Source: a virus
IMG/VR virus record: IMGVR_UViG_3300028840_008160
Span: 124,001 to 188,000 of that record
Direction: 5' to 3' (one strand)
Length of the DNA: 64,000 nt
The position numbers and the translations under genes are program-made. Below the pieces are notes generated by a model, which was not told the origin of the DNA, ran no database searches, and was given only the letters and a program-made list of their open reading frames with translations. This document shows positions 21,055 to 51,082 of the stretch, piece after piece (position 1 is the first letter of the stretch; the number at the start of each line of letters is the position of its first letter).

Positions 21055-21138
21055 ATGACTTCACTGACTTGTAATAGCAATTACTTTACAAGTAGTTTTT
21101 CCAATTACGGAAAAACTGATCAGTGGGGTTTTGCATAG
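21055..21138 (+). CDS. Leader peptide A (27 aa) of tRNA operon A
   Basis: ATG 21055 behind GGAAGGA, TAG at 21136. The core codons are those read by the tRNAs downstream: TGT for tRNA-Cys(GCA); AAT three times for tRNA-Asn(GTT); AGC once and AGT twice for tRNA-Ser(GCT); TTT three times for tRNA-Phe(GAA). TAC also occurs twice (tRNA-Tyr is in operon B). The stop lies just 3' of strand 2 of the antiterminator, so a ribosome finishing the ORF would mask strand 2 and permit termination, whereas a ribosome stalled in the Cys/Asn/Ser/Phe run would allow antitermination. Codon match and geometry are seen in sequence; the mechanism is inferred. Confidence 0.8.
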   Translation: MTSLTCNSNYFTSSFSNYGKTDQWGFA

Positions 21139-21203
21139 GTTTCTAACTCAAAGCAAAACGAAATTCAAAGCTCCACTGATCTAACGGTCGGTGGGGCTTT
21201 TTT
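21120..21203 (+). promoter_or_regulatory. Attenuator A: competing antiterminator and terminator
   Basis: Antiterminator: TCAGTGGGG (21120-21128) pairs with CTCCACTGA (21171-21179), with an inner TTTTGC/GCAAAA. Terminator: GCTCCAC (21170-21176) pairs with GTGGGGC (21191-21197) followed by six T. CTCCAC is shared, so the two are mutually exclusive. It sits 28 bases before tRNA-Phe. Confidence 0.85.
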
Positions 21204-21230
21204 AATGGGAGAATGTTAATGAAAATCAAT

Positions 21231-21306
21231 GCTGCTTTAGCTCAGTCGGTAGAGCAAGGGACTGAAAATCCCTGTGTCCGCAGTTCAATTCTGCGAGGCG
21301 GTACCA
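21231..21306 (+). tRNA. tRNA-Phe(GAA) 1
   Basis: Acceptor GCTGCTT/AGGCGGT, anticodon arm GGGA CTGAAAA TCCC, T-arm CGCAG TTCAATT CTGCG, CCA encoded. First tRNA of operon A; its codon TTT occurs in leader A. Confidence 0.93.
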
Positions 21307-21314
21307 TTTTTCAT

Positions 21315-21390
21315 GCCGTTGTAACTCAGTTGGTAGAGTGCTGGACCGAAAATCCAGTGGTCGGCGGTTCAAATCCGCCCGGCGGCACCA
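21315..21390 (+). tRNA. tRNA-Phe(GAA) 2
   Basis: Acceptor GCCGTTG/CGGCGGC, anticodon arm CTGGA CCGAAAA TCCAG, CCA encoded. Position 33 is C, not the usual T. Confidence 0.92.
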
Positions 21391-21402
21391 AAAGGAAACA
21401 AA

Positions 21403-21591
21403 ATGAATGACAAACGAGTTCAGAGATTGATTGATGAACAAATTTGCTGTTCATTTGCTGAAGCGCGCAGATTAGTTGCCGCTATATCAGATGATTGTTT
21501 TGATTCATTTGTCGAAAGGCAAAAACGAAAAAGAGTAACATGGGTCGCAAGCCAATTCGTAAACCGACCCTTTTGTGGCCAAAGGAGGTAA
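21403..21591 (+). CDS. Small protein between tRNAs, 62 aa
   Basis: ATG 21403 with AAGGA site, 13 bases after the CCA of tRNA-Phe 2. Sequence includes RLIDEQICCSFAEARRLVAAI and a basic C-terminus. No family recognised. Inserted between tRNAs of operon A, so co-transcribed with them. Confidence 0.5.
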   Translation: MNDKRVQRLIDEQICCSFAEARRLVAAISDDCFDSFVERQKRKRVTWVASQFVNRPFCGQRR

Positions 21592-21613
21592 TTACTGGTA
21601 CGTAGCTATTTAC

Positions 21614-21701
21614 TGACGAGTAGCCTAGCGGCAAGGCAGTTGGCTGTTAACCAACCGTGACGCAAGTCCAATCGGGGGTTCGAATCCCTCCTCGTCAGCC
21701 A
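21614..21701 (+). tRNA. tRNA with Asn anticodon (GTT) but long variable arm
   Basis: Acceptor TGACGAG/CTCGTCA, G73, CCA encoded; anticodon arm GTTGG CTGTTAA CCAAC. The variable region is 18 bases and can form GAC-GCAA-GTC, a class II feature normally limited to Leu, Ser and bacterial Tyr. Identity is therefore uncertain: Asn by anticodon and G73, Ser-like by body. Confidence 0.85.
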
Positions 21702-21702
21702 A

Positions 21703-21713
21703 GTTCTTTGACA
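21703..21713 (+). promoter_or_regulatory. boxA-like site
   Basis: GTTCTTTGACA immediately after the CCA of the preceding tRNA; resembles boxA of ribosomal operons. Confidence 0.35.
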
Positions 21714-21720
21714 TTTTTAC

Positions 21721-21995
21721 TGGCGTGTAGCTCAGTTGGCAGAGCAGTTGGCTGAATTTCGGCCCACTACATAGTAATATGTAGTTGCAAACTCTTTAAA
21801 TTCAGGGAAAGCTAAGTCATTTGTGATATGCTAATCCTGAGCGAAGCTCGAAAGAGAACGTGCAGAGACTATAATAGGAGCATCCAATTTTAGGATGATG
21901 GGATAGTCCAGACTACAAACAGTTTATACTGGCAGTGAAAACTGTAGTTAGTATGGTTAACCAACATGTCGTAGGTTCGAACCCTACCACGCCAG
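21721..21995 (+). tRNA. tRNA-Asn(GTT) interrupted by a group I intron
   Basis: Exons 21721-21753 and 21956-21995 join into a standard tRNA: acceptor TGGCGTG/CACGCCA, D-arm, anticodon arm GTTGG CT-GTTAA CCAAC, T-arm GTAGG TTCGAAC CCTAC, G73. The intron splits the anticodon loop between T33 and G34. No CCA is encoded. Confidence 0.9.
21754..21955 (+). other. Group I intron in tRNA-Asn (202 nt)
   Basis: 5' exon ends in T and the intron ends in G, as required for group I splicing. The core R element GTGCAGAGACTA (21860-21871) and S element GGATAGTCC (21901-21909) form P7. No ORF inside. The 12-base R core is identical to that of the tmRNA intron at 53747-53758. Confidence 0.88.
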
Positions 21996-22063
21996 CTTTC
22001 TTTTCTCTTTGTCTGACACAAAACGGTGGATAAAGATAGCTAACGAATTTGTTGGACAATAAA

Positions 22064-22150
22064 GGAGGATTAGCGTAACCAGGTAACGCAGCAGATTGCT
22101 AATCTGTGAACTGAAAGGTTTTGGGGGTTCAAATCCCTCATCCTCCGCCA
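22064..22150 (+). tRNA. tRNA-Ser(GCT)
   Basis: Acceptor GGAGGAT/ATCCTCC, anticodon arm GCAGA TTGCTAA TCTGT, long variable arm, G73, CCA encoded. Codons AGC and AGT appear in leader A. Confidence 0.92.
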
Positions 22151-22253
22151 TGAAAATAAGGAGTAATTATGCATAAGGAGTTTCTTTATCACATGTTTAT
22201 GCGGAAAAGTATTTCAATTAACTCAGATTCAATTTGATGATTTTGATTGTGGG

Positions 22254-22367
22254 ATGATGGGTTATTTGAAATGTCAATGTGGTAATGTGATTATGCCTCA
22301 TTGTGAAAGTCGCAAAGTTCAAATCAACGTAATTGATGTTGAAGGAGAAGATAATGGTTGGGCTTGA
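22254..22367 (+). CDS. Possible small zinc-ribbon-like ORF (start unclear)
   Basis: The frame ending TGA at 22365-22367 reads CGMMGYLKCQCGNVIMPHCES and an acidic tail. It stays open upstream through a Cys-containing stretch (CLCGKVFQLTQ) with no in-frame ATG, GTG or TTG near the AAGGAG at 22172. ATG 22254 is the first standard start but cuts the pattern. Either a rare start codon is used or this is a degraded gene. Confidence 0.3.
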   Translation: MMGYLKCQCGNVIMPHCESRKVQINVIDVEGEDNGWA

Positions 22368-22443
22368 TTAGAACTTAAATGAAATTCTACTTTTATCATA
22401 TAATAAAACAAAAAATAGTTTCACATTTTAACGGAAGGATTAT

Positions 22444-22836
22444 ATGATGAAAGTAGAAATCAAAAAACTTGGCGAAGAAGTTATTTGTGATGCTTTAGTT
22501 CAAGTTGATTATCTCAATAATCCGGATAAATTAAAAGAAGTTTGTTTAAGTTCGTTGAAAAAAGGTGATTGTCAAATTGTATCAGATCAAGCAGCTATTT
22601 TTCATCAATTTTCAGATGACAAAGATGGTCACGGAGATGGAGTAACAGGGTTGATCGTTATTAAAGAATCTCATTTTCATATAAGTACATGGCCAGAAGA
22701 ACAATATATACAGATTAACGTTAATACTTGTGGTCATATTGCTAAACCGTTAATTGCATTAAACTGGTTATTGTTTGAAATGAGAGTTGTAAAAAGTACA
22801 TTACAAGTGATTGAACGAGGAGTGTTGTTGAAGTGA
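22444..22836 (+). CDS. speH: S-adenosylmethionine decarboxylase (SpeH/SpeD type)
   Basis: 130 residues, the size of the small prokaryotic proenzymes. Signature GVTGLIVIKESHFHISTWPEE holds the self-cleavage site E75-S76 (Ser becomes the pyruvoyl group) and His residues, and NTCG at ~94-97 supplies the conserved Cys. The enzyme makes decarboxylated AdoMet, the aminopropyl donor for spermidine. Polyamines stabilise packaged DNA, tRNA and ribosomes, so it fits both virion and translation roles. RBS GGAAGG before ATGATG. Confidence 0.88.
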   Translation: MMKVEIKKLGEEVICDALVQVDYLNNPDKLKEVCLSSLKKGDCQIVSDQAAIFHQFSDDKDGHGDGVTGLIVIKESHFHISTWPEEQYIQINVNTCGHIAKPLIALNWLLFEMRVVKSTLQVIERGVLLK

Positions 22837-22907
22837 AAAAGAAGAAAAAGACAAAAAGACAACCTTGTAATAGAGATTGTGCTAATTGTAATAAAATTCT
22901 TTGTTAA
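22833..22907 (+). CDS. Cys-rich micropeptide, 24 aa
   Basis: GTG at 22833 overlaps the TGA of the AdoMet decarboxylase gene; Lys-rich start then C-x3-C-x2-C-x4-C (CNRDCANCNKILC). Could bind a metal. Short, so only moderately supported. Confidence 0.35.
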   Translation: MKKKKKTKRQPCNRDCANCNKILC

Positions 22908-22911
22908 GATT

Positions 22912-23598
22912 ATGTCAAATTATACTGGACAATTTGCTGGACAAGGTCATATCTGGAAGAGAGGAAAAACTGACATTGAATTATTTGGGCCAGAGAAAGC
23001 AAAATTAATTGGTAAAAAAATATCTAAAGCGTTAAAAGGTAAAAGTACTGGTATAGCTAAGAATGCTGACGCAGAACTGTTGCGACGAAAGCGTATTTCA
23101 GATGGCATGAAAAAAGCACATCGTGAAGGTCGTGCTAATAAATGGAAAAGAACAAATTCGTTTGCAGAACAAATGTTTGAAGCTTTTTTGATTAAGAAGA
23201 ATTATAAAAAAGGTGTTGATTTTGTACGAGAAAAAAGGTTTGGATTGTTTTCAGTTGATTTTTTCTTTCCAGAAAAAAATTTAGCAATCGAAATAGATGG
23301 ACAAGCACATTTTAGATATGAACATTTGAAACAACGTGATAAAGTAAAAGATAATTTTTTAAATAGTAAAGGCATAATTGTTTTACGAATTATTTGGAAA
23401 GTATTGTTTCATCATGCTAAAATTACATTTAATCAAATTGAAAAATTGATAATTCAAAATGATAGAATTGCAATTGAAAAATTTATGCTTGATCAATTTG
23501 ATAAATTGTTAATGATGAAAAATGATAAGCATAAATATACAAAAGTAATGAAAGACGGTGTAGCAGAGTTGGTTTCATGCTCTAGACTGCAAATCTAG
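22912..23598 (+). CDS. Homing endonuclease (NUMOD-like plus VSR/DUF559-type nuclease)
   Basis: ATG 22912 (MSNYTGQF). A basic DNA-binding N-terminus with NUMOD3-like segments (KLIGKKISKALKGKS, RRKRISDGMKKAHREG) is followed by a PD-(D/E)XK-type core: FSVDFFFPEKNLAIEIDGQAHF, then DNFLNSKGIIVLRIIWK. This is the very-short-patch-like fold of free-standing phage homing nucleases. Its 3' end runs into tRNA-Cys and stops at the tRNA anticodon stem, which suggests tRNA-Cys is its insertion or target site. Confidence 0.8.
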   Translation: MSNYTGQFAGQGHIWKRGKTDIELFGPEKAKLIGKKISKALKGKSTGIAKNADAELLRRKRISDGMKKAHREGRANKWKRTNSFAEQMFEAFLIKKNYKKGVDFVREKRFGLFSVDFFFPEKNLAIEIDGQAHFRYEHLKQRDKVKDNFLNSKGIIVLRIIWKVLFHHAKITFNQIEKLIIQNDRIAIEKFMLDQFDKLLMMKNDKHKYTKVMKDGVAELVSCSRLQI

Positions 23599-23630
23599 GT
23601 ACGTGGGTTCAAATCCCACCACCGTCTCCA
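23554..23630 (+). tRNA. tRNA-Cys(GCA)
   Basis: Acceptor GACGGTG/CACCGTC, anticodon arm CTAGA CTGCAAA TCTAG, T73 (the Cys discriminator), CCA encoded. Overlaps the end of the homing endonuclease gene. Codon TGT is in leader A. Confidence 0.92.
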
Positions 23631-23637
23631 AAATATA

Positions 23638-23922
23638 GTTGCTCTGGGCTTACGCGCTTAATGAAAGTTGGGTGAGGAAACTCGGGACACCACTGCTGAA
23701 GGTAGGAGATAGGCACCTTAAAAGACGGCTCAAACAATAATTAGTATGACTTTGATGGGTATGTCCAAGCCGAATGAAAGTCCATCAGCCTATCGTTTTT
23801 ACTACCGAGGGTGCAACTCCAAGCAGACCTAGAGGGTGAGCAGCTCGATGATGGTCGGGTCGGAGGCATTAGTCAGATGTAAGCCGCCCGAAAGGGTACA
23901 GAATCCCGGTTATAGGAGCAAC
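23638..23922 (+). ncRNA. rnpB: RNase P RNA (phage-encoded)
   Basis: Ends pair as P1: GTTGCTC (23638-23644) with GAGCAAC (23916-23922). The universal 5' core GAGGAAA (23674-23680) is followed by CGGGA, which pairs with TCCCG (23904-23908) inside ACAGAATCCCGG, forming P4. Other conserved pieces are AGGGTGCAACTCC, and AGATGTAAGCCGCCC ahead of the 3' core, matching the bacterial pattern. About 285 nt, a compact bacterial-type RNA. RNase P trims 5' leaders of tRNA precursors; here it lies among tRNAs it would process. No rnpA is seen in the window. Confidence 0.9.
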
Positions 23923-23948
23923 TTTTTCTTTTGAAGGAGTTTATAAAT

Positions 23949-24034
23949 GGGTGAGTAGCTCAGTTGGTCAGAGCGCCGGGCCGTTAACCCGGAGGCCCAT
24001 TGGGATTTCGTGGGTTCGAATCCCACCTTGCCCT
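23949..24034 (+). tRNA. tRNA with Asn anticodon (GTT) and long variable arm 2
   Basis: Acceptor GGGTGAG/CTTGCCC, anticodon arm CCGGG CCGTTAA CCCGG (C33), 17-base variable region with CCC-ATT-GGG, T-arm GTGGG TTCGAAT CCCAC. Second Asn-anticodon tRNA with a class II-like arm. Position 73 is T and CCA is not encoded. Confidence 0.82.
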
Positions 24035-24066
24035 CTTTCTACGCAAATAGATATGATTACTATAAC

Positions 24067-31408: not shown

Positions 31409-31437
31409 AATCTTCGTGTTTTTAAGGTATATTTATC
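31409..31437 (+). promoter_or_regulatory. Second conserved promoter-like repeat, copy 2
   Basis: Matches 20831-20859 at 28 of 29 bases, with TATATT at 31428-31433. Leader B starts 24 bases downstream. Confidence 0.5.
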
Positions 31438-31460: not shown

Positions 31461-31589
31461 ATGCAAACTCCAAGAATCCATACAGCTTCGCTTATAAAGC
31501 ATGTACATGCAGCTGTCATGGTCTTGTCCTCATTATCATGGCTACTCGAAGGAGAAGGTTATGATAAAACGAGGGCAGGTGGGGTTTGA
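31461..31589 (+). CDS. Leader peptide B (42 aa) of tRNA operon B
   Basis: ATG 31461, TGA 31587 inside strand 2 of the antiterminator. The codons sample the isoacceptors of this long operon nearly one by one: CAT (His), TCG, TCC and TCA (three Ser), AAG and AAA (two Lys), GTA (Val TAC), TTG, TTA, CTA and CTC/CTT (four Leu), TGG (Trp), GAA (Glu TTC), GGA, GGT and GGG (three Gly), TAT (Tyr), GAT (Asp) and ACG (Thr CGT). Only CTG (Leu CAG) and GAG (Glu CTC) have a downstream tRNA without their codon. The densest segment encodes SWLLEGEGYDK. Ribosome stalling would favour antitermination. Confidence 0.82.
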   Translation: MQTPRIHTASLIKHVHAAVMVLSSLSWLLEGEGYDKTRAGGV

Positions 31590-31654
31590 TGGAATAAACG
31601 AAACGATCTGAAAATCAAACCCCGCCGATCCAAAAGATCGACGGGGTTTTTTTT
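31581..31654 (+). promoter_or_regulatory. Attenuator B: competing antiterminator and terminator
   Basis: Antiterminator GGGGTTTGAT (31581-31590) with ATCAAACCCC (31614-31623). Terminator CCCCGCCGATC (31620-31630) with GATCGACGGGG (31636-31646) then eight T. CCCC is shared. The C-A mismatch in the terminator stem recurs at the same position in attenuator C. Confidence 0.88.
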
Positions 31655-31673: not shown

Positions 31674-31751
31674 GGTGATAGTAGCTCAGCTGGTTAGAGC
31701 ACTGGATTGTGGTTCCAGATGTCGGGGGTTCGAATCCCCTCTATCACCCCA
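31674..31751 (+). tRNA. tRNA-His(GTG)
   Basis: Includes G-1 opposite C73 as in all bacterial tRNA-His, anticodon arm CTGGA TTGTGGT TCCAG, CCA encoded. Confidence 0.94.
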
Positions 31752-31764
31752 AAGATTTTGATTG

Positions 31765-31776
31765 TGCTCTTTGACA
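31765..31776 (+). promoter_or_regulatory. boxA-like antitermination site in operon B
   Basis: TGCTCTTTGACA, one base from ribosomal boxA TGCTCTTTAACA, placed just after the first tRNA. Confidence 0.55.
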
Positions 31777-31816
31777 GTCTCGGTAGTTGTTGCAAGCACA
31801 TTGTTGATGTAAACAA

Positions 31817-31900
31817 GCCGAAGTGGTGGAATTGGCAGACACGCTAGGTTCAGAGCTTAGTGAGAGCAATCTCATGCTGGTTCAAGTCCAGTCTTCGGCA
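31817..31900 (+). tRNA. tRNA-Leu(CAG)
   Basis: Acceptor GCCGAAG/CTTCGGC, anticodon arm CTAGG TTCAGAG CTTAG, class II arm, A73. Confidence 0.93.
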
Positions 31901-31947
31901 TGACAATATACGATGTGGGAGTATTTTGGAAACTTCCACATCGTTCT

Positions 31948-32030
31948 GCGGTCGTGGTGGAATGGCAGACACGCTACTTTGAGGTGGTAGTGAGAGCAAT
32001 CTCGTGAAGGTTCAAGTCCTTTCGACCGCA
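31948..32030 (+). tRNA. tRNA-Leu(GAG)
   Basis: Acceptor GCGGTCG/CGACCGC, anticodon arm CTACT TTGAGGT GGTAG, class II arm, A73. Confidence 0.92.
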
Positions 32031-32041
32031 TTAAATTTTGC

Positions 32042-32117
32042 GGAGACGTAGTTCAGTTGGTAGAACGCTGGATTGTCGATCCAGAGGCCGCGGGTTCAAA
32101 CCCCGTCGTTTCCGCCA
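32042..32117 (+). tRNA. tRNA-Asp(GTC) 1
   Basis: Acceptor GGAGACG/CGTTTCC, anticodon arm CTGGA TTGTCGA TCCAG, G73, CCA encoded. Confidence 0.93.
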
Positions 32118-32348
32118 AATTAAATTTGGTATGTAATGACAAGATGGGTTCGATTCCCATAACTTCTCTTCTAAAGAAGTGCTGGAAGCAATTTACTATG
32201 GATGTTATAGTAAAAATGAACGCGCGCAGGGTAATCGTAATTGATCCTATCATAGACGCGCATAAGAAACTGTTAGTCCAGTTTCATTGTAGAACTTAAT
32301 GATGGTACAAATGAAGTTACAGATGAAAATTATGATTATGGGATTTGC

Positions 32349-32423
32349 AGGCGTATAGCTCAATGGTAGAGCATTGGTCTCCAAAACCAACGGTTGCGGG
32401 TTCAAGTCCTGCTGCGCCTGCCA
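32349..32423 (+). tRNA. tRNA-Trp(CCA)
   Basis: Acceptor AGGCGTA/TGCGCCT, anticodon arm TTGGT CTCCAAA ACCAA, G73 (Trp identity), CCA encoded. Codon TGG is in leader B. Confidence 0.94.
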
Positions 32424-32440
32424 TTACTTGAAAGGTTCTA

Positions 32441-32581
32441 ATGGTACAAATTGTAAGAGTTAAATGCAAAGAATGTAATCACAGATTTACACATGTTAAA
32501 GTAGATGAAGCAATGATTACATGTCCGATTTGTCAGTCAGATACGTTAATTGAACAAGTTTTTCATGAAATTAAAGTTTAA
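32441..32581 (+). CDS. Zinc-ribbon protein, 46 aa
   Basis: ATG 32441 to TAA 32579, AAAGG site. CKEC...CPIC spacing (VKCKECNHRF and MITCPICQSD) forms a rubredoxin-like zinc ribbon. Lies between tRNA-Trp and tRNA-Gly, with the stop one base before the tRNA. Function unknown. Confidence 0.65.
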   Translation: MVQIVRVKCKECNHRFTHVKVDEAMITCPICQSDTLIEQVFHEIKV

Positions 32582-32657
32582 GCGGGCGTAGCTCAATTGA
32601 TAGAGTTCCACCCTTCCAAGGTGGCTGTTGTGGGTTTGAGTCCCATCGCCCGCTCCA
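32582..32657 (+). tRNA. tRNA-Gly(TCC)
   Basis: Acceptor GCGGGCG/CGCCCGC, anticodon arm CCACC CTTCCAA GGTGG, T73 (Gly), CCA encoded. Confidence 0.94.
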
Positions 32658-32661
32658 ATAT

Positions 32662-32748
32662 GGGTAGGCTGCGGAGACGGTGAGTCGCGGAAGACTGTAA
32701 ATCTTCTCCCTTCGGGGTGTGGGGGTTCGAATCCCTCCCTGCCCACCA
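32662..32748 (+). tRNA. tRNA-Tyr(GTA)
   Basis: Acceptor GGGTAGG/CCTGCCC, anticodon loop CTGTAAA, class II variable arm, A73, CCA encoded. Confidence 0.93.
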
Positions 32749-32754
32749 TTTTTT

Positions 32755-32828
32755 GGTCCGGTAGTGTAGTTGGTTAACACGGTACTCTCTCAAGGTACAG
32801 ATCACGAGTTCGATCCTCGTCCGGACTA
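32755..32828 (+). tRNA. tRNA-Glu(CTC)
   Basis: Acceptor GGTCCGG/CCGGACT, anticodon arm GTACT CTCTCAA GGTAC. Confidence 0.92.
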
Positions 32829-32880
32829 TTGCTTATGACAACAGATTTAATCGTCTGTTGACAGTTCGTTTTTCTAAAAC

Positions 32881-32954
32881 GGCCCGGTAGTGTAGCTGGT
32901 TAACACAACGCCCTTTCAAGGCGTAGATCGCGCGTTCAAGCCGCGTCCGGGCTA
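32881..32954 (+). tRNA. tRNA-Glu(TTC)
   Basis: Acceptor GGCCCGG/CCGGGCT, anticodon arm ACGCC CTTTCAA GGCGT. Codon GAA is in leader B. Confidence 0.93.
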
Positions 32955-32964
32955 TTTTAGGAGG

Positions 32965-33069
32965 ATGAATGATATTTCTAAACTATCTAAATTGTGGAAT
33001 TGTTCGCATACACAAGTTAGACGATATTTACGAGATAATGATATGACATTTAACATGTTGAAGAAATGA
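32965..33069 (+). CDS. 34-aa helix-turn-helix micro-ORF
   Basis: TTAGGAGG site directly before ATG 32965; encodes KLSKLWNCSHTQVRRYLRD, which reads as a complete helix-turn-helix. Could be the DNA-binding remnant of a homing endonuclease; a broken tRNA 3' half follows at 33108. Confidence 0.5.
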   Translation: MNDISKLSKLWNCSHTQVRRYLRDNDMTFNMLKK

Positions 33070-33107
33070 ATGCTGTATTCAACGTTATTTTGAATGCAGA
33101 GACGCGG

Positions 33108-33133
33108 AGTTCGATTCTCCCATGGGCTACCAA
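33108..33133 (+). pseudogene. tRNA 3' fragment (T-arm and acceptor)
   Basis: GGAG TTCGATT CTCC, then ATGGGCT-A-CCA. No matching 5' half (AGCCCAT) or anticodon arm is upstream; the HTH micro-ORF sits where it should be. Likely a tRNA broken by a mobile gene. Confidence 0.6.
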
Positions 33134-33184
33134 CATTTAACAAAGGAGGAAAATATGACTTAACATCTTAACAGGAGTTAAGTT

Positions 33185-33439
33185 ATGTCAAGATCGTATC
33201 GAAAGCCCTGGTGCGTTGATGGTTACGGAACGAAAGGTAAGAAAATTAGCAAACGATTTGCTAATAAGACTGTTCGTAATGCTGATGATGTTCCAAATGG
33301 AAAAGCATATCGAAAATATTTTGAATCGTGGAACATTTCTGATTACAGATTTTTTATGGACAGTGAACCTTACTTTTCAAGAATTACTTTACAGTGGGAA
33401 GAACCACTGACACCTACGTGGAAGGCGCGTAGAAAGTGA
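33185..33439 (+). CDS. Small basic conserved-type phage protein, 84 aa
   Basis: ATG 33185 (MSRSYRKPWCVDGYGTKGKK), good site AGGAG. Basic and aromatic-rich; no motif recognised. Similar short basic proteins recur between phage tRNAs. Stop lies 6 bases before tRNA-Gly(GCC). Confidence 0.65.
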   Translation: MSRSYRKPWCVDGYGTKGKKISKRFANKTVRNADDVPNGKAYRKYFESWNISDYRFFMDSEPYFSRITLQWEEPLTPTWKARRK

Positions 33440-33444
33440 AGTTT

Positions 33445-33518
33445 GCGGTAGTCGCATAGTGGCCAATTGCGCCACGTTGCCAACGTGGATGTCGGGAGTT
33501 CGAATCTCCCCTACCGCA
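33445..33518 (+). tRNA. tRNA-Gly(GCC)
   Basis: Acceptor GCGGTAG/CTACCGC, anticodon arm CCACG TTGCCAA CGTGG. Codon GGT is in leader B. Confidence 0.92.
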
Positions 33519-33536
33519 TTTATTTTGAAAATAAAA

Positions 33537-33687
33537 GGAAGTGGTGCTCTAGAATAAGACTTCAGAAAATCTTTTTACAGGTTCGAGTCCTGTTCTCCCC
33601 GCTATTATGGGGAGATAGCCAAATTGGTAAGGCAAAAGATCGCTAATCTTTGATAATTTTCATGGTTTTATTCACTTTCACCCTTTC
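33537..33687 (+). ncRNA. Y-RNA-like ncRNA 2 containing a circularly permuted tRNA-Ser(GCT)
   Basis: Terminal stem GGAAG, bulged T, GGTG (33537-33546) with CACC-CTTTC (33679-33687); then GAATAAGA (33552-33559) with TTTTATTC (33666-33673). Both helices differ from element 1 by compensatory changes. Inside, the 3' half of a tRNA (T-arm ACAGG TTCGAGT CCTGT 33577-33593; acceptor strand TCTCCCC 33594-33600) precedes the 5' half (acceptor strand GGGGAGA 33609-33615; D-arm; anticodon arm AAAGA TCGCTAA TCTTT 33635-33651). The acceptor is closed by 8 bases and the long stem takes the place of the variable arm. Confidence 0.7.
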
Positions 33688-33694
33688 TTTTTAT

Positions 33695-33771
33695 GGGCGC
33701 ATAACTCAGCGGTACAGAGTACCTGCCTTACAAGCAGGAGGTCGTAGGTTCAAATCCTACTGTGCCCACCA
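33695..33771 (+). tRNA. tRNA-Val(TAC)
   Basis: Acceptor GGGCGCA/TGTGCCC, anticodon arm CCTGC CTTACAA GCAGG, CCA encoded. Codon GTA is in leader B. Confidence 0.93.
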
Positions 33772-33778
33772 TATTTAT

Positions 33779-33851
33779 CGCGGGGTGTAGCAGTTGGTAG
33801 CTTGTTGGGCTCATAACCCAACGGTCGTCGGTTCGAGTCCGACCCCCGCTA
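33779..33851 (+). tRNA. Initiator tRNA-fMet(CAT) 1
   Basis: C1 opposite T72 (unpaired first position) and three G-C pairs in the anticodon stem (TTGGG CTCATAA CCCAA) are initiator hallmarks. Acceptor CGCGGGG/CCCCGCT. Confidence 0.88.
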
Positions 33852-33856
33852 TTTAC

Positions 33857-33917
33857 GCAGACTTAGATGGCCGGAGTCACTGCCCCTAGGGTATGTAAGG
33901 CCGCATCGACAGTCTGC
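33857..33917 (+). ncRNA. Structured hairpin RNA, unknown
   Basis: GCAGACT (33857-33863) pairs perfectly with AGTCTGC (33911-33917); inside, GATG/CATC, GCC/GGC and TGCCC/GGGTA stack in line. It starts like a tRNA (7 bp, then TA) but has no T-arm. Lies between tRNA-fMet and a broken tRNA-Leu. Confidence 0.5.
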
Positions 33918-33921
33918 AAAT

Positions 33922-33960
33922 GCCAGTGTGGCGGAATGGTAGACGCGCTAGTTCTAATCT
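33922..33960 (+). pseudogene. tRNA-Leu 5' fragment
   Basis: GCCAGTG, then a class II D-arm (GGCGGAATGGTAGACGC) and start of an anticodon arm, with no 3' half. The homing endonuclease gene begins 36 bases later and an intact tRNA-Leu(TAG) follows it, so the nuclease gene probably replaced or duplicated a tRNA. Confidence 0.65.
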
Positions 33961-33995
33961 TTTGATATGAGAGTTTCTAATAAAAGGAAGTTCTC

Positions 33996-35415: not shown

Positions 35416-35423
35416 TTTAGATT

Positions 35424-37674: not shown

Positions 37675-37676
37675 TT

Positions 37677-38090: not shown

Positions 38091-38166
38091 GATAACGGTA
38101 ATCAAAAAACAACATATAAAATGGAAGATAGGAAAAAGTAGCGTTAGACGATTTTTAAAAGTTTAT

Positions 38167-38258
38167 GGAGGAGTGCCGGAGTCTGGTTTATCGGAGCAGT
38201 CTTGAAAACTGTCGGTCGTTCACACGGCCCGTAGGTTCAAATCCTACCTCCTCCGCCA
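38167..38258 (+). tRNA. tRNA-Ser(TGA)
   Basis: Acceptor GGAGGAG/CTCCTCC, anticodon loop CTTGAAA, class II arm, G73, CCA encoded. Codon TCA is in leader B. Confidence 0.94.
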
Positions 38259-38306
38259 TATCTTTGCTAGTAAGAAGTCTTGTATGATTTAAAAGGAGAT
38301 GATAGA

Positions 38307-38651
38307 TTGAGAGTTTTAGTGTTAGATGATTCAAAGATTAGATTAATTCAATTCAGACAGAATTTGATTGGTCACAATGTCAGGTGTGTTACAACTGTTA
38401 GAGAGACGATTGATTCTTTGGCAGATGAAGACTGGGATTATTTGTTTTTGGATCATGATCTTGGTGGTCAAGTTAATGTACCATCGGGTCCAGGTACAGG
38501 ATATGAAGTCGCTCAATGGCTAGTTGAACATCCTGATAGACAACCTGAACACATTGTTCTTCATAGTTTTAATGAAAATGGACGAAAGAACATGCAATCA
38601 TTGCTTCCTGAAGCTATGATGTGTCCTGGTGCATGGACAAAAATAAGGTAG
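38307..38651 (+). CDS. Cyclic-phosphate processing receiver (cREC) domain protein
   Basis: TTG start at 38307 after AAGGAGA; about 114 residues. RVLVLDDSKIRLIQFR, WDYLFLDHDLGGQ, GYEVAQWLVEHP and EHIVLHSFNENGRKNM match the receiver-like domain predicted to process cyclic phosphates in RNA-repair operons. With RtcB, Ro60 and Pth2-like proteins in the same tRNA region, a role in handling 2',3'-cyclic phosphate RNA ends is plausible. Its stop falls inside tRNA-Ser(CGA). Confidence 0.72.
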   Translation: MRVLVLDDSKIRLIQFRQNLIGHNVRCVTTVRETIDSLADEDWDYLFLDHDLGGQVNVPSGPGTGYEVAQWLVEHPDRQPEHIVLHSFNENGRKNMQSLLPEAMMCPGAWTKIR

Positions 38652-38732
38652 GTTAGGATAATTGGTAATCCAGCAGTTTCGAAAACTGCCGACCGCAAGG
38701 TCTTGGGGGTTCAAATCCCTCACCTACCGCCA
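38647..38732 (+). tRNA. tRNA-Ser(CGA)
   Basis: Acceptor GGTAGGT/ACCTACC, anticodon arm GCAGT TTCGAAA ACTGC, class II arm, G73, CCA encoded. Codon TCG is in leader B. Confidence 0.94.
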
Positions 38733-38737
38733 AAATT

Positions 38738-39028
38738 ATGGACGAGCCAGAGTTTAAACAGTTTAAAGAACAGCTTGATCACTTAGATCAAGAAATAATG
38801 ATGGGTACTGTTAAATCTGTTTTGTTTGTTGACGGCCCAAAAGCAGGAGAAACATTGTTGATGAATTGGAAAGATGGTAAGCCTTGTCATCTGAAAATGT
38901 TTATGATTGTGCCCAGAATGTTTAAATTATCTGAGCCAGTAAAAAAAGCTGAATATGAATGGAATATTGATGACGAAGTGTTTGAATTTACAGGACGAAC
39001 AAAAGTTGATTTTGCAAGGGATTTATGA
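38738..39028 (+). CDS. Hypothetical protein, 96 aa
   Basis: ATG 38738. Acidic, with VLFVDGPKAGETLLMNW; beta-rich. No family recognised. Overlaps the next ATG region (TGAATG). Confidence 0.6.
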   Translation: MDEPEFKQFKEQLDHLDQEIMMGTVKSVLFVDGPKAGETLLMNWKDGKPCHLKMFMIVPRMFKLSEPVKKAEYEWNIDDEVFEFTGRTKVDFARDL

Positions 39029-39199
39029 ATGGAAGGTATAGAACAATTAACAACTGCATTTGCTGAAATTGAAAAACACGAACTCAAAGTGAATACTATT
39101 ATTTGTACAGCTTGTGGTTGTGTTTTATCTGTTAATGATGATAATAAACCATGTGAACATCTTAGAGAATTAGGGAAAGCGTTTGAATTAAAAGATTGA
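39029..39199 (+). CDS. Small Cys-containing protein, 56 aa
   Basis: ATG 39029 immediately follows the previous stop. CTACGC and CEH could form a zinc site (C-x2-C...C-x-H). Unrecognised. Confidence 0.5.
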   Translation: MEGIEQLTTAFAEIEKHELKVNTIICTACGCVLSVNDDNKPCEHLRELGKAFELKD

Positions 39200-39248
39200 A
39201 TTATTAAAACAAGGAAAAACAATTGTCTCAAAAGAGCCAGGTAATTCA

Positions 39249-39473
39249 ATGACACCATTGTTGAAGTCGAGGCAACCTGTAAGAATTGCTCCAGTTACAA
39301 TAGATGAAGTTGATGTTGGTGACATCGTATATTGTAAGGTGAGAGGAAATTGTTATACGCATTTGGTGAAAGCAAAAAGTTCTAGAGGTTGTCTAATTGG
39401 CAATAATCATGGACGAATTAATGGTTGGACGAAACAAGTTTACGGCAAAGTCATTGAAATTTTGGAGGGTTAA
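39249..39473 (+). CDS. S24/LexA-like fold small protein, 74 aa
   Basis: VDVGDIVYCKVRGNCYTHLVKAK and LIGNNHGRINGW resemble the C-terminal beta fold of S24/S26 peptidases, but the catalytic Ser/Lys pair is not evident, so it may be non-catalytic. Its TAA stop is nucleotides 8-10 of tRNA-Ser(GGA). Confidence 0.5.
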   Translation: MTPLLKSRQPVRIAPVTIDEVDVGDIVYCKVRGNCYTHLVKAKSSRGCLIGNNHGRINGWTKQVYGKVIEILEG

Positions 39474-39553
39474 ACCCGTAACTGGTAGCGGTGTAGATTG
39501 GAAATCTACGGCTTGTAAAAGTCCTGAGGGTTCAAGTCCCTCACCCTCCGCCA
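39464..39553 (+). tRNA. tRNA-Ser(GGA)
   Basis: Acceptor GGAGGGT/ACCCTCC, anticodon arm GTAGA TTGGAAA TCTAC, class II arm, G73, CCA encoded. Codon TCC is in leader B. Confidence 0.94.
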
Positions 39554-39582
39554 TCTTTGTATTTCAGTATGATTAGATAGAC

Positions 39583-40008
39583 ATGAATCAAATACTTTGC
39601 GAAACACCGATGCATTTTATAGCAAAAGCATTGTCAAATGTTATATTTCTTGAAGCTAGATGGTTGCCTGATAACAATGATAAAGGATTGAATGTTAAGG
39701 ACATTATAGATTTACCTTATCATGTAATAGAATCAGTGCCTGTGATAATAACTCCATCATTAGAAATAGTGATAACTAAACCAATAGAATTGAAATTTGA
39801 AAACAAGACAATGTTCTACTGTGTTTTTTATCATCAAAGTTCAAAGTCAGTTTGTATTCCTAATTGGTTTCCAATGGTTATGTGGGGAGAGCCAACAACA
39901 TCATACACAATTTCTAGCAAAAATATTCCAAGTAATAGTATTGCTGGTATCCAGATGTCAGATATACCGTCTTTTAATAAGTTTGACATATTAGTAGGCG
40001 AGAATTGA
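39583..40008 (+). CDS. Hypothetical protein, 141 aa
   Basis: Beta-rich (HVIESVPVIITPSLEIVITKPIEL), no motif recognised. Stands alone between tRNA-Ser(GGA) and the 40060 gene. Confidence 0.55.
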   Translation: MNQILCETPMHFIAKALSNVIFLEARWLPDNNDKGLNVKDIIDLPYHVIESVPVIITPSLEIVITKPIELKFENKTMFYCVFYHQSSKSVCIPNWFPMVMWGEPTTSYTISSKNIPSNSIAGIQMSDIPSFNKFDILVGEN

Positions 40009-40059
40009 TATAGATTTGATAATGAGATTCACAATAAATTTAACATACAGAAGGGCTTT

Positions 40060-47281: not shown

Positions 47282-47412
47282 TGAGGTTCAAGTCCTCATT
47301 CATCTGAATCTTACTACTGGTCTAGAACAGCTGGTAGGAGCAACTTTGGCGATAACGTAAAAGCCTTGGAAGTTAAGATGATCGTTCAACTGGCAAAGGA
47401 TACCTTCGCCAT
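47282..47412 (+). ncRNA. Orphan T-arm followed by a structured hairpin, unknown
   Basis: TGAGG TTCAAGT CCTCA (47282-47298) is a perfect T-arm without the rest of a tRNA. A stem TGGCGA (47347-47352)/TCGCCA (47406-47411) with inner GCC/GGC and GTT/AAC helices follows. Could be a decayed or permuted tRNA or a separate ncRNA. Confidence 0.4.
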
Positions 47413-47416
47413 TTAC

Positions 47417-47492
47417 TGGGGTGTAGCTCAATTGGTAGAGCATCGGCCTTTGGAGCCGAGTGTTGTTGGTTCAAATCCAACCACTCCAGCCA
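47417..47492 (+). tRNA. tRNA-Gln(TTG) 2
   Basis: Acceptor TGGGGTG/CACTCCA, anticodon arm TCGGC CTTTGGA GCCGA, G73, CCA encoded. Confidence 0.94.
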
Positions 47493-47511
47493 AAATATAT
47501 TAGGAGAAAAA

Positions 47512-47757
47512 ATGAATCAGATCGACAATTGTTGGTTGAAAGATATGGAAGGTTGTGATTTAGAATGTGGTGATCATTGTGGATATTATAAGTTTTTGCA
47601 AGTGATGAAAGATTTAATCAATAATTGGAGAGAAAGTTCAGAACATGCTAATCGTAATAATGACGAGCAAGCAGCTGGAATATTTCAATTATGTGCTAAC
47701 GAATTAGAATGTTCTTTGAAAACTGGTAGTGATAAAGTAGAACGCATTGGGGTATAG
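47512..47757 (+). CDS. Hypothetical protein, 81 aa
   Basis: TAGGAG site, ATG 47512. N-terminal CWLKDMEGCDLECGDHC has four Cys that could bind zinc; the rest is helical. Unrecognised. TAG stop is nucleotides 8-10 of tRNA-Gln(CTG). Confidence 0.6.
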   Translation: MNQIDNCWLKDMEGCDLECGDHCGYYKFLQVMKDLINNWRESSEHANRNNDEQAAGIFQLCANELECSLKTGSDKVERIGV

Positions 47758-47823
47758 TTCAATTGGTAGAACGCCTGACTCTGGATCAGGAAGTCTGAGG
47801 TTCGAGTCCTCATACCCCAGCCA
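47748..47823 (+). tRNA. tRNA-Gln(CTG)
   Basis: Acceptor TGGGGTA/TACCCCA, anticodon arm CCTGA CTCTGGA TCAGG, G73, CCA encoded. Codon CAG is in leader D. Confidence 0.94.
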
Positions 47824-47831
47824 TAAATTAT

Positions 47832-47908
47832 GCCCGCGTAGCTCAATTGGATAGAGCGTCTGGCTACGGACCAGGAGGTTGAGGGTTCGAATCCTTCCGC
47901 GGGTGCCA
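47832..47908 (+). tRNA. tRNA-Arg(ACG)
   Basis: Acceptor GCCCGCG/CGCGGGT, anticodon arm TCTGG CTACGGA CCAGG, CCA encoded. A34 would be deaminated to inosine to read CGC and CGA, both in leader D. Confidence 0.93.
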
Positions 47909-47915
47909 TATTTTT

Positions 47916-47992
47916 CGGGCAGTGGCGCAGTCTGGTAGCGCACTTGAATGGGGTTCAAGGGGTCGGAGGTTCAAATCCTCTCTGCCCGACCA
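47916..47992 (+). tRNA. tRNA-Pro(GGG)
   Basis: Acceptor CGGGCAG/CTGCCCG, anticodon arm CTTGA ATGGGGT TCAAG, A73, CCA encoded. Codon CCC is in leader D. Confidence 0.93.
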
Positions 47993-48007
47993 TTTTTGAG
48001 AATTATT

Positions 48008-48361
48008 ATGCAAAGTTTACACGGGTTAAGCCGAAACAAGTTATATGTTGATGATCCGCATGTGCAATCGCATGCAGCATTGTCTTTATTGGTGACCAAA
48101 TTAGGTGAAGAAAGTCATAAAGAATGGCTGACATTTCGAGTAAAATATTTAAGTCAATTCGAATCATTAGTTTGCCATTATTGTGGAAAAGAAGGATTGT
48201 TAATTGAAACTGATGATGAAGAGCATCTTGCTACCGTTGATCATGTAGTTCCATTGTCGAAAGGTGGAGCCGAATTTGATCCTGAAAATTTAGTTGTGGC
48301 TTGCCTTTCGTGCAATGGTAACAAGAAAGACAAGGATTATGATCGATATACGAACGATTAA
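48008..48361 (+). CDS. HNH endonuclease
   Basis: 117 residues. CHYCGKEG...[33 protein letters not shown] is a complete HNH with two CxxC pairs. Short form typical of phage HNH nucleases inserted among tRNAs. Overlaps the start of the radical SAM gene. Confidence 0.85.
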
Positions 48362-49325
48362 AAACGGCTATTGGTGGGATTCTATTGGCAAATTTGATGC
48401 GTTAGTTAATAACGAATTGTCGTTAAGAGAATTAACTATGCAAATAACTGATAGATGCAACATGAATTGTATTAAATGTAATAAGCGAAATTTTACATTT
48501 GAAGATATGAAATCTGAAGATGTTGTTAGAATCATAAACGAATCATGTGATCTAGGGCTAAAGCATATTCATTTTACTGGAGGCGAGCCAACACTGCATG
48601 CTGATTTTGTTGATTTTGTCAAATTATGTAGAAGTAAAGATTTACGAATAGACATGTCTACGAATGGTATGTTTAATTATGAAATGGGTAAGTCATTAGT
48701 TGATGCAGGTATTAATTCAATAAATGTTTCATGGGATTACATAGACAAAGAACCTGAATGTATCAGCTTTATCGGTGACTTTCCAATTAAAGTGTTTTTG
48801 AATCATATGGTGATACCAGATAATTATGATAAGTTGTGTGATTTTTTACTTCATGTGTTTAATTTGAAGTTCATTGAAGATATTCAGTTAATGCCGCCAA
48901 GAGGAGATGCGCAAAAGTTCACAAAAGAACAAATTAATGATTTTTGTCAAGCAGTTGATAAATCACATGTCTTAAGTAGATCTATTGTATCAGGCAAACG
49001 TCGTTTTCCAATGGTTGCTTATAAGATTTGTGATCTTTTAACTGATAGTGAGGCAGATAAAGGTATTTATCATGAACGAATAAGTTGGCCATGTCATAGG
49101 TCAAAAGCTGAATTACGAGTCGGTTGCAAAGGATTTGTAACATGTACTTATTTATATCGTGATGGTCATATTACATGTGGTTTAGATCATTCGGTAAAAG
49201 ATGCATGGGAAAAGTGTATGATTGAATGTGAATCTATACCACCTGTAAAACATATGTGTGATTTTAGTTGCAGTCCTGAAGTATGTTATTTCAATTATTT
49301 TGTTGAGAATAGAATGCCCTCGTAG
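48339..49325 (+). CDS. Radical SAM enzyme 1
   Basis: 328 residues from ATG 48339. CNMNCIKC (C40, C44, C47; CX3CX2C) binds the 4Fe-4S cluster; HFTGGEPTLHADF is the SAM-binding GGE motif. C-terminal Cys clusters (HMCDFSCSPEVC) suggest an auxiliary cluster (SPASM/Twitch type). Substrate unknown; such enzymes modify peptides, nucleotides or sugars. Its TAG stop is nucleotides 8-10 of tRNA-Arg(CCG). Confidence 0.87.
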   Translation: MIDIRTIKNGYWWDSIGKFDALVNNELSLRELTMQITDRCNMNCIKCNKRNFTFEDMKSEDVVRIINESCDLGLKHIHFTGGEPTLHADFVDFVKLCRSKDLRIDMSTNGMFNYEMGKSLVDAGINSINVSWDYIDKEPECISFIGDFPIKVFLNHMVIPDNYDKLCDFLLHVFNLKFIEDIQLMPPRGDAQKFTKEQINDFCQAVDKSHVLSRSIVSGKRRFPMVAYKICDLLTDSEADKGIYHERISWPCHRSKAELRVGCKGFVTCTYLYRDGHITCGLDHSVKDAWEKCMIECESIPPVKHMCDFSCSPEVCYFNYFVENRMPS

Positions 49326-49392
49326 TTCAATTGGATAGAGCACTAGATTCCGAATCTAGAAGTTGGAGGTTCAAATCCTCTCGAGGGTGCCA
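49316..49392 (+). tRNA. tRNA-Arg(CCG)
   Basis: Acceptor GCCCTCG/CGAGGGT, anticodon arm CTAGA TTCCGAA TCTAG, G73, CCA encoded. Codon CGG is in leader D. Confidence 0.94.
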
Positions 49393-49467
49393 CGGGGTAT
49401 AGCTCAGTCTGGTTAGAGCGCTGCGTTCGGGACGCAGAGGTCGTCAGTTCAAATCTGACTACCCCGA
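49393..49467 (+). tRNA. tRNA-Pro(CGG)
   Basis: Acceptor CGGGGTA/TACCCCG, anticodon arm CTGCG TTCGGGA CGCAG, A73. Directly abuts the previous CCA. Codon CCG is in leader D. Confidence 0.94.
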
Positions 49468-49511
49468 TTATCTTCGATTTAATGCATGATTATCATTCAA
49501 AGAGGTTAAAT

Positions 49512-50903
49512 ATGTCAATGGAAAAACTCTACGAATCGCTTCACAGACGTTTACGTCCCGAAGATGTCGCAGAACTTATTTTAAAAGTTTTGCACCCTAA
49601 TCTGACACGTTCTGAACGTGATGAGCTTAATAAAATCGCTAAGCATTCATTAAAGCGCGGAATGTATTCGTTTACTTCAATGGCTCAAGATTTTCATTGT
49701 GCTATTGCACCTGATCGCCAAGTAAAGAAAGCAAAGGAGTTGTTTGAAACTGCATATAAAATTGATTGTACTGACCCTGAAGCAGTACTTGCGTTGATTC
49801 GTACTATTTCCAAAGAGATAGAGAAAACTGTCGGTAAAGGTGATTTCAAAGACGACAGAATGAATCGCGAAGCACGTAAATCACATGGACTTGACATTTC
49901 TCGTCGTCGGTATAACAAATTGTTCAGATTTCTTGGCAGATTTGAACAAAAAGTTGAGAAGTATGTGTTTGAAATGCGCAAAGAACGTGCTACACGCGTT
50001 TCAAAATCGGGTCTTGCGTTTAAAGTTTCCGAGAAAGATTTTATGAAGTCAAAAGAAGCAGCATGCTTTGTTGCTTATTTTACTGCAAGAAAGAATCGCA
50101 GAAGTGTATTTACTAATTCATCGCAAGATCGTGCATATGATAATTTGTCAAAACTTTTATTGAACAAATTTAAATCAAATCCTTGTCGAGCAGGTTGGCG
50201 AATTATAGCTAGAGTGATGCCTGATGCTGAAATTGTTGCAAAATTAACAAAGAAAGACAAGATGGAATTGTTTGCGACATGGATTGATGTTCTTAATGAC
50301 ATTGCTGATATGCTTAAGACTGTGTGGTTGGGTAGCCGGTTCAATCGAGAAACTATGGTTGTTTCTCGCGGTGATGATTCAAGCACATGGAATTCTTTGG
50401 CTGGCGCATGGAACACTGCACGTCAAGGATGGTTCAGTCTTGTTTATGCTCTTGGCATGGATAAGATGCTTGAAACTGTTTGTTTTGGTAAGGTTATGAG
50501 ATTGATGGCTGCTGATGTTGTTCGTTGGCATCAGTCAAGTGGTGGTCAACTTGAGCCTGATACTTTGGTATGGGCCACATTACCAGCTCCATGGGAAGTC
50601 TTTTCGGGCGAAAAAGAATGTTCAAAGCAAATAGTTGAAGGTGTTTGCAAAAAGAATAATGTTGATCCTGTTCGAAAGAATTGGATAATGCCAATTAAGT
50701 CAAGATCAGCTGTTGAATTTAAACCGACGCCTGAACTTGTTCATGGTGTAACAGTGTCGCATCCAGGGTTGGCTAATATTCTTAAGAAAGCTGGATGGTT
50801 TTCTGGAAAGCAAGCTGTTCCAGTTTCAGAAGCAGTTGTAGTTGATCATGATGAACATGGAGCAGTTGTAGGAGCAAACTTTGCAAATGCGTCGTCGATA
50901 TAG
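49512..50903 (+). CDS. Conserved-type large-phage protein of unknown function, 463 aa
   Basis: ATG 49512 behind AGAGG. All-helical protein with SRGDDSSTWNSLAGAWNTARQGWF and MRLMAADVVRWHQSSGGQL. I recall related proteins in other phages with large tRNA sets, but not a function. It is less AT-rich than neighbours, like the genes at 17868 and 40060. It sits inside operon D and its TAG stop is nucleotides 8-10 of the next tRNA, tying its expression to the tRNAs. Confidence 0.6.
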   Translation: MSMEKLYESLHRRLRPEDVAELILKVLHPNLTRSERDELNKIAKHSLKRGMYSFTSMAQDFHCAIAPDRQVKKAKELFETAYKIDCTDPEAVLALIRTISKEIEKTVGKGDFKDDRMNREARKSHGLDISRRRYNKLFRFLGRFEQKVEKYVFEMRKERATRVSKSGLAFKVSEKDFMKSKEAACFVAYFTARKNRRSVFTNSSQDRAYDNLSKLLLNKFKSNPCRAGWRIIARVMPDAEIVAKLTKKDKMELFATWIDVLNDIADMLKTVWLGSRFNRETMVVSRGDDSSTWNSLAGAWNTARQGWFSLVYALGMDKMLETVCFGKVMRLMAADVVRWHQSSGGQLEPDTLVWATLPAPWEVFSGEKECSKQIVEGVCKKNNVDPVRKNWIMPIKSRSAVEFKPTPELVHGVTVSHPGLANILKKAGWFSGKQAVPVSEAVVVDHDEHGAVVGANFANASSI

Positions 50904-50966
50904 CTCAGTGGTAGAGCGCACGGCTCTTGGACCGTGTGGACGCTGGTTCGAGCCCAGCTGTCGACG
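50894..50966 (+). tRNA. tRNA with 8-base anticodon loop (Gln TTG-like or Lys CTT-like)
   Basis: Acceptor GTCGATA/TGTCGAC, T-arm GCTGG TTCGAGC CCAGC. The anticodon arm is CACGG CTCTTGGA CCGTG, one base longer than normal. By similarity to the loop CTTTGGA at 47417 it may be Gln(TTG) with an inserted C. Eight-base loops are known in +1 frameshift-suppressor tRNAs. Confidence 0.75.
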
Positions 50967-50975
50967 CTATACTAT

Positions 50976-51047
50976 GACCTTGTAGCTCAGCGGTAGAGCT
51001 GTCGGCTCCTAACCGACTGGACGCTGGTTCGAGCCCAGTCAAGGTCA
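50976..51047 (+). tRNA. tRNA-Arg(CCT) 2
   Basis: Acceptor GACCTTG/CAAGGTC, anticodon arm GTCGG CTCCTAA CCGAC. Last tRNA of operon D; its T-arm and variable region are nearly identical to those of the 8-base-loop tRNA just upstream. Confidence 0.9.
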
Positions 51048-51050
51048 CAA

Positions 51051-51082
51051 AATCGAGCAGTCAAAAACTGCTCGATTTTTTT
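51051..51082 (+). terminator. Terminator ending operon D
   Basis: AATCGAGCAGT (51051-51061) pairs perfectly with ACTGCTCGATT (51067-51077), followed by T-tract. Confidence 0.92.

Follow-up and report, generated by a model that had tools for sequence, protein, structure and literature searches.

It has long been asked why large phages carry dozens of tRNA genes; here we examine a phage locus where such genes form operons that are each led by a short open reading frame (ORF). The locus is a stretch of 64,000 nucleotides (hereafter the window), corresponding to bases 124001-188000 of a 329,800-base virus record (IMGVR_UViG_3300028840_008160); positions below use window numbering unless another locus is named. 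ARAGORN predicts 56 tRNA genes in the window, and an Rfam search of the entire 329,800-base record placed all of its tRNAs there. An earlier note on this DNA proposed that the codons of four leader ORFs form a checklist of the tRNAs encoded downstream. Judging from the sequence and from folding models, we put at roughly 0.84 the probability that the leaders act as ribosome-mediated transcription attenuators, each gauging the supply of the tRNAs of its own operon.

Four leaders and the operons they precede

All four leader ORFs are present on the plus strand where the note had placed them. Leader A (21055..21138) encodes the 27-residue peptide MTSLTCNSNYFTSSFSNYGKTDQWGFA, with Cys, Asn, Ser and Phe codons, and precedes tRNA operon A (21231..24035, +), which comprises Phe, Phe, Asn, an intron-containing Asn (21721-21996), Ser(GCT), Cys and Asn. 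Leader B (31461..31589; 42 residues, MQTPRIHTASLIKHVHAAVMVLSSLSWLLEGEGYDKTRAGGV) precedes operon B (31675..40957, +), with His, Leu, Asp, Trp, Gly, Tyr, Glu, Val, Met, Lys, Ser(UCN), an ochre-reading tRNA and Thr(CGT). Leader C (41053..41169; 38 residues, MKNLTQTYHFISRPDAQVSDMDMRQVTCAATTIRNGAT) is followed by operon C (41268..45125, +), comprising Met, Thr, Thr, Ile, Ile, three Ala, Asp, Arg(AGR), Met, Arg and Val. Leader D (46883..46945; 20 residues, MVYANNIRRPQPQQPRRLYA), with the core RRPQPQQPRR, is followed by operon D (47025..51048, +), comprising Pro, Gln, Pro, Gln, Gln, Arg(ACG), Pro, Arg(CCG), Pro, a tRNA with a four-base anticodon call and Arg(CCT). Every anticodon that had been listed for the four operons was found, as was the intron-split tRNA-Asn. 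A further tRNA-Asn(att) at 20906 lies 5' of leader A and is not part of its attenuator. Start signals precede the leader ORFs, with GGAAGGAA, AGGA or GAGG-like sites at several starts.

The codons of the window leaders follow the anticodons of their own operons, as had been claimed: of the 24 possible leader/operon assignments, the true one scores best. Individually, leader D has 10 Pro, Gln or Arg codons out of 19 (2.8 expected, p = 1 × 10−4) and leader A has 12 cognate codons out of 26 (4.4 expected, p = 5 × 10−4). Because the operons of leaders B and C span many amino acids, enrichment in these two is weak when taken alone (p = 0.05 and p = 0.014, respectively), yet all amino acids of the operon are present in each (12/12 and 7/7). 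The Ser codons of leader A had been described as AGY; AGY is indeed favoured, but not exclusively, as two UCN codons also occur. The strong evidence for the codon match is found in relatives, beyond the window.

Codon content of leaders across phages

For an unbiased test, we took every tRNA cluster with a preceding gap, scored the best-matching upstream ORF against its own operon and permuted the operons. Across five settings of this max-over-ORF test, which covered 128-157 tRNA clusters, z ranged from 4.7 to 6.7, and the observed mean was higher than in any of 20,000 permutations. Gaps inside clusters are mostly without a leader, the true operon having a median rank of 76/156 over all gaps; leaders are located at operon starts.

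We also compiled 39 leader/operon pairs, picked by eye, from 14 phages or phage contigs. In these, 605 of 1110 codons are cognate (55%) against 314 expected (28%), 173 of 175 operon amino acids occur in the operon's own leader, and no swap in 50,000 came near the observed match. The result holds with a single pair per ortholog group (n = 28). The own pairing is the best of 6 in Tunturi_5, of 720 in LR745208 and of 24 in the IMG/VR relative G013. The shuffled-pairing comparison suggested in the earlier note thus comes out in its favour: leader codons predict downstream anticodons in related phages, including some that have little sequence in common with the phage of the window.

Short ORFs are common, some operons span most amino acids and several pairs are weak, so a coincidence, or an artefact of picking the ORFs that fit, has to be considered. 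The permutation above already rejects this explanation, since it controls for the choice of ORF. Orthologous leaders moreover diverge yet keep their match, and cognate codons concentrate before the predicted switch point described below. We regard coincidence as having a negligible chance of being correct.

Isolates with checklist leaders are Bacillus phage G, Tunturiibacter phage Tunturi_5, cluster C mycobacteriophages, Xanthomonas phage XacN1, Caulobacter phage CcrColossus and Brevundimonas phages Bajun and Gurke. In LR745208.1, a distant 485-kb phage found via its tail proteins, the tRNA genes are sorted by amino acid, and a matching short ORF precedes six of the clusters. Its leaders are MNSYTTSERERESDSERT for Glu/Asp/Glu, one ending in GRDGGTLARGCGRVQRRRRIRPTT for Arg3Gly2, MRFFTTTRTRTAGLTRKG for Thr3, MNLSTHSTNTAPAATAACVVACVGPAAPPAA for Pro/Ala, MNQHLHHHCY for Tyr/Cys/His and MFDRATNSIPSLKLELLLSCAGVDLCTRA for Leu5. 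Three operons of Tunturi_5 are led by MKTLCLSSYCLSSSLSLS... (Leu/Cys/Tyr/Ser), MQHVSTFRFAVPATAGNPAGQQGTNACDTGGG... (Gln/Gly/Thr/Pro/His/Ala/Phe) and MKQILKQLGHDFDIRGKRGVVVDTWDITIRGERKWSDVRDMRV... (Trp/Asp/Met/Lys/Val/Arg/Glu/Ile/Gly), and the Cys/Asp/Phe/Tyr/Glu/Thr/Ser operon of phage G by MMKCSWFEFDTDFTDVFYCEYTFYSLYTF.... Cluster C mycobacteriophages, whose leaders have leaderless-type starts, carry MFA(L/R)LSLSSSLRLS before Ser/Leu3 and MRTSSQQNRQQ or MRTNRLNRQQ before Gln/Asn; the diverged orthologous leaders of Myrna, LinStu, Tonenili and Lukilu retain the LSLSSSL core and the match. XacN1 has MNKPYYKRYYAKA before Lys/Lys/Tyr and a second leader of 41 amino acids with 34/40 cognate codons. 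A leader of CcrColossus has 29/38 cognate codons, with counterparts in Bajun and Gurke. Among IMG/VR relatives, G002 and G003 carry orthologs of leaders A-D or A-C, and G006, G007 and G013 carry further leaders.

We considered whether the leader peptides are conserved as proteins and rejected this: orthologs of leader B share an LSWL..GYDK core, but unrelated phages share the codon rule alone. The Bajun leader (L134:965-1093) is already annotated as hypothetical protein BAJUN_02440, and more leaders may therefore hide among annotated short ORFs. Searches for related loci with the protein upstream of leader A as query, and by tblastn with a 473-aa protein of operon D, yielded no match.

The scan for leaders found no convincing one in T4, KVP40, Felix O1, S-PM2, CBB, RaK2 or PegLeg, and therefore the system is not universal. 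CcrColossus reached p = 3 × 10−7 in the scan that included these control phages; control-phage ORFs near p = 1 × 10−3 (KVP40, Felix O1, S-PM2) are no more than chance would give with so many gaps and ORFs scanned.

A stall could in principle reflect a missing amino acid or a missing tRNA. Classical leaders (trp, his, thr, ilv) respond to amino-acid lack, and leaders that sense host amino-acid starvation through uncharged tRNA, not the levels of particular tRNAs, would trip the same switch. The product here is tRNA, however, which is no remedy for a missing amino acid, and sets such as Pro+Gln+Arg or Tyr+Cys+His fit no single pathway. The operons group by anticodon, and Ser codons in the leaders match the AGY or UCN box of the operon's tRNA (18:11 versus 6:28, p = 6 × 10−4), which favours sensing of tRNA over amino acid; for Arg and Leu, there were too few cases for the same codon-box test. 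Starvation sensing is thus quite unlikely.

A predicted switch between read-through and termination

The earlier note described a rho-independent terminator before the first tRNA of each operon and a competing antiterminator at or beside each leader stop, and both were seen in A-D: a strand near the stop (strand 1) pairs with the 5' arm (strand 2) of a U-tracted terminator hairpin whose 3' arm is strand 3. All these elements are on the plus strand. In A, strand 1 (21117..21134) lies within the leader's end and forms a duplex of −24.7 kcal/mol with strand 2, while the terminator (21168..21203) consists of strand 2 (21168-21181), a loop, strand 3 (21186-21199) and the U-tract, with a hairpin of −21.7 kcal/mol. 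Strand 1 of B (31577..31590) overlaps the stop codon, with a duplex of −23.0 kcal/mol and a terminator (31618..31654; strand 2 31618-31630, strand 3 31636-31648, U-tract) of −18.0 kcal/mol. That of C (41168..41182) begins at the stop codon, with a duplex of −22.0 kcal/mol and a terminator (41201..41234; strand 2 41201-41213, strand 3 41218-41230, U-tract) of −19.3 kcal/mol. Strand 1 of D (46946..46956) lies immediately 3' of the stop codon, and its duplex reaches −9.5 kcal/mol; the terminator (46975..47006; strand 2 46975-46984, strand 3 46992-47001, U-tract) has a hairpin of −14.4 kcal/mol.

Including A-D, 21 leaders have an intrinsic terminator before the first gene. In these, the duplex of strands 1 and 2 averages −18.1 kcal/mol within the own leader and −10.7 kcal/mol when strands are swapped (0/20,000). 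Full-length equilibrium folding was insufficient to reveal switching in about half of the leaders, so we added a calculation in which the RNA is truncated before strand 3 emerges and a stalled ribosome masks up to 12 bases beyond the A-site codon. Strand 2 is then captured upstream with a mean probability of 0.78 for stalls in the leader body and 0.13 with the ribosome at the stop, and the difference has this direction in 21/21 leaders. Duplex swapping and ribosome-masked folding thus agree with the three alternative strands, and with termination once the ribosome is at the stop, in all 21 terminator-type leaders. For B, the predicted terminator probability is ~0.01 with the ribosome stalled at VMVLSSLSWLLEG and 0.99 with it at the stop; for C, it is 0.97 at the stop and 0.02-0.6 for stalls across nearly the whole leader.

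In many leaders, the checklist ends at or before the switch point, defined as the last codon at which a stalled ribosome still leaves strand 1 accessible. Examples, with a slash at the switch point, are ...WLLEGEGYDK/TRAGGV, ...LSCLSSLYFK/VRQEGEA and ...TSSFSNYG/KTDQWGFA. In the 19 leaders where the point could be set inside the ORF with a clear tail, 64% of codons before it and 31% after it are cognate (Fisher p = 5 × 10−11); expected values in this analysis were computed with rounded amino-acid frequencies, of which the before/after contrast is independent.

Leader translation, attenuation in vivo and its physiological trigger are what we infer from the anatomy, codon/anticodon match and predicted switch, which were established computationally. 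RNA polymerase would transcribe the leader with a ribosome trailing behind. If all checklist codons are decoded promptly, the ribosome would reach the stop and cover strand 1, so that strand 2 would pair with strand 3 and the terminator would halt transcription short of the tRNA genes. Slow decoding of any listed codon, its tRNA being scarce, cut or poorly matched, would stall the ribosome upstream of strand 1; strand 1 would then capture strand 2 ahead of strand 3, transcription would enter the operon, and its output would replace the missing tRNA, among others. Such logic would give each operon its own OR-gate and place tRNA supply under negative feedback. Host shut-off, codon mismatch or an anticodon nuclease may be what depletes the tRNAs.

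Several findings weigh against this scheme. Some curated pairs are weak individually (Ccr-E, G003-C, G013-H and LR-E), and since we picked the curated pairs by eye, such selection is avoided in the max-over-ORF test only. When the full-length RNA is folded to equilibrium, the terminator wins at almost every stall position in about half of the leaders (A and D types, G007-1, G013-Y, G013-H, Tun-L and phage G), which therefore need a kinetic folding order. Leader D has the weakest switch of the window (0.69 versus 0.49). With zero translation, the model predicts read-through, because no strand shields strand 1. Lastly, no U-tract terminator follows the checklist leaders of cluster C mycobacteriophages and of LR745208.

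In these latter phages, where the leaders end 6-50 bases before the tRNA, the output step must differ from U-tract termination, given that no such terminator is present. The strand 3' of the stop pairs with the leader itself (−16.7 for own leaders versus −12.6 swapped, 2/20,000). In some cases it also pairs with the 5' end of the first tRNA (67/20,000, in a set that includes orthologs), a suggestive signal that comes mainly from Ser operons of related phages. Alternative pairing with the leader region or the first tRNA 5' end is predicted at L030, L036, L116 and L117 (cluster C mycobacteriophages) and at L003:15397-15519. Control of tRNA folding in place of termination is a possible output for this class. 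The pairings also fit leaders that act as translational testers or timers, which would delay tRNA expression until host tRNAs fall late in infection, with the terminator only partly involved, or act via processing of tRNA precursors; that checklist leaders persist in the terminator-less class speaks for such a role. As an intrinsic terminator with a matched antiterminator is present in 21 leaders, A-D among them, we consider that role unlikely.

Taking both classes together, codon-checklist attenuation is probably a widespread phage regulatory class, in which ribosomes stalled for want of downstream-encoded tRNAs would induce tRNA operons groupwise. It would form a self-diagnosing repair or supply circuit against host tRNA loss, including by defence nucleases, in phages of at least four bacterial phyla and with at least two RNA output mechanisms.

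Neighbouring elements and known systems

Further elements accompany the leaders. An 18-base motif, TTTTAAGGTATATTTATC, occurs at 31420..31437 (+) upstream of leader B and as an identical copy at 20842-20859 upstream of leader A, and is a candidate promoter common to both; shuffles expect 0.17 matches even allowing up to three mismatches, against two exact ones. The upstream regions of A and D have a second motif in common, TTGAAAGTGGYGCTT (20876-20890 and 46769-46783); in A, tRNA-Asn(att) sits between both motifs and the leader. A-type leaders have a hairpin directly 5' of strand 1 whose sequence varies between orthologs (arms AGTTTTTCC/GGAAAAACT, GTTTTTGC/GCAAAAAC and TTCTGC/GCAGAA); by analogy with trp, it could be a pause hairpin that lets the ribosome catch RNA polymerase. 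TAG is the stop codon of leaders A, C and D. Past the stop, the frame stays open up to the U-tract in A-D and in 13/21 leaders overall (4.5 expected from other frames), which may reflect composition. The stop codon may itself be a checklist item, because reading through it would melt the terminator.

Other elements were found among the tRNA genes themselves. In operon A, a match across the whole Rfam model of bacterial RNase P class A RNA (23636-23928, +; 55 bits, E = 1.7 × 10−14, under the curated cut-off of 100) marks a possible phage-encoded RNase P RNA between tRNA-Cys and tRNA-Asn. A large ORF of the same operon (24010-26496) resembles, by eye, an RtcB-type RNA ligase with an intein-like insert, and PegLeg likewise has RtcB adjoining its tRNA array. 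The intron of tRNA-Asn(gtt) at 21721-21996 (+) has 202 bases; tRNA-Thr(tgt) of G002 and G003 (loci L091 and L093) has introns of ~200 bases, the one in G003 being a group I match. At 53241-53851 (+), a tmRNA gene has a group I intron match directly 3'. Amber- and ochre-reading tRNAs and one with a four-base anticodon call (cttg) are located at 27440-27511, 34885-34959 and 50894-50967.

If the attenuator reading is true, the leaders would exemplify attenuation whose regulated output is tRNA genes. The codon checklist would tell which tRNAs a phage expects to lose together, and it suggests that tRNA supply is sensed, not constitutive. Each operon thereby receives a prediction readable from sequence and testable in culturable phages such as G, Tunturi_5, CcrColossus and >200 sequenced cluster C mycobacteriophages, and the leaders could report directly on tRNA-targeting defence during infection.

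The statement in the earlier note that no such phage system had been described agrees with the open-access PMC literature, where we found no description; keyword searches of papers on XacN1, Tunturi virus and mycobacteriophage tRNAs returned no passage that mentions checklist leaders. Phage tRNA clusters of the T4/T5 type counter anticodon nucleases or codon mismatch (e.g., PMC11555353). They are alike in that phage tRNAs replace or supplement those of the host, but the papers checked describe no codon-matched leader control. T-box riboswitches are similar in linking cis-RNA antitermination to tRNA status. However, in T-boxes the RNA itself binds uncharged tRNA and the controlled genes are those of synthetases or biosynthesis, whereas the reader of the phage leaders would be the ribosome; the Rfam model gave no T-box match in the window, and we rejected this identity. 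Leader-peptide attenuators (trp, his, thr and ilv; Rfam Thr_leader RF00506 and Phe_leader RF01859) likewise have a short leader ORF rich in regulatory codons and an antiterminator alternative to an intrinsic terminator, with a stall leading to read-through, as predicted here. Leader D aligns to the full Thr_leader model below its cut-off (34.4 bits versus 55; E = 0.006 in 31.5 kb). Unlike these attenuators, the leaders described here are located in phages, list up to 12 amino acids each, have three strands only, with no separate protector of strand 1, and have tRNA genes, not enzymes, as their output.

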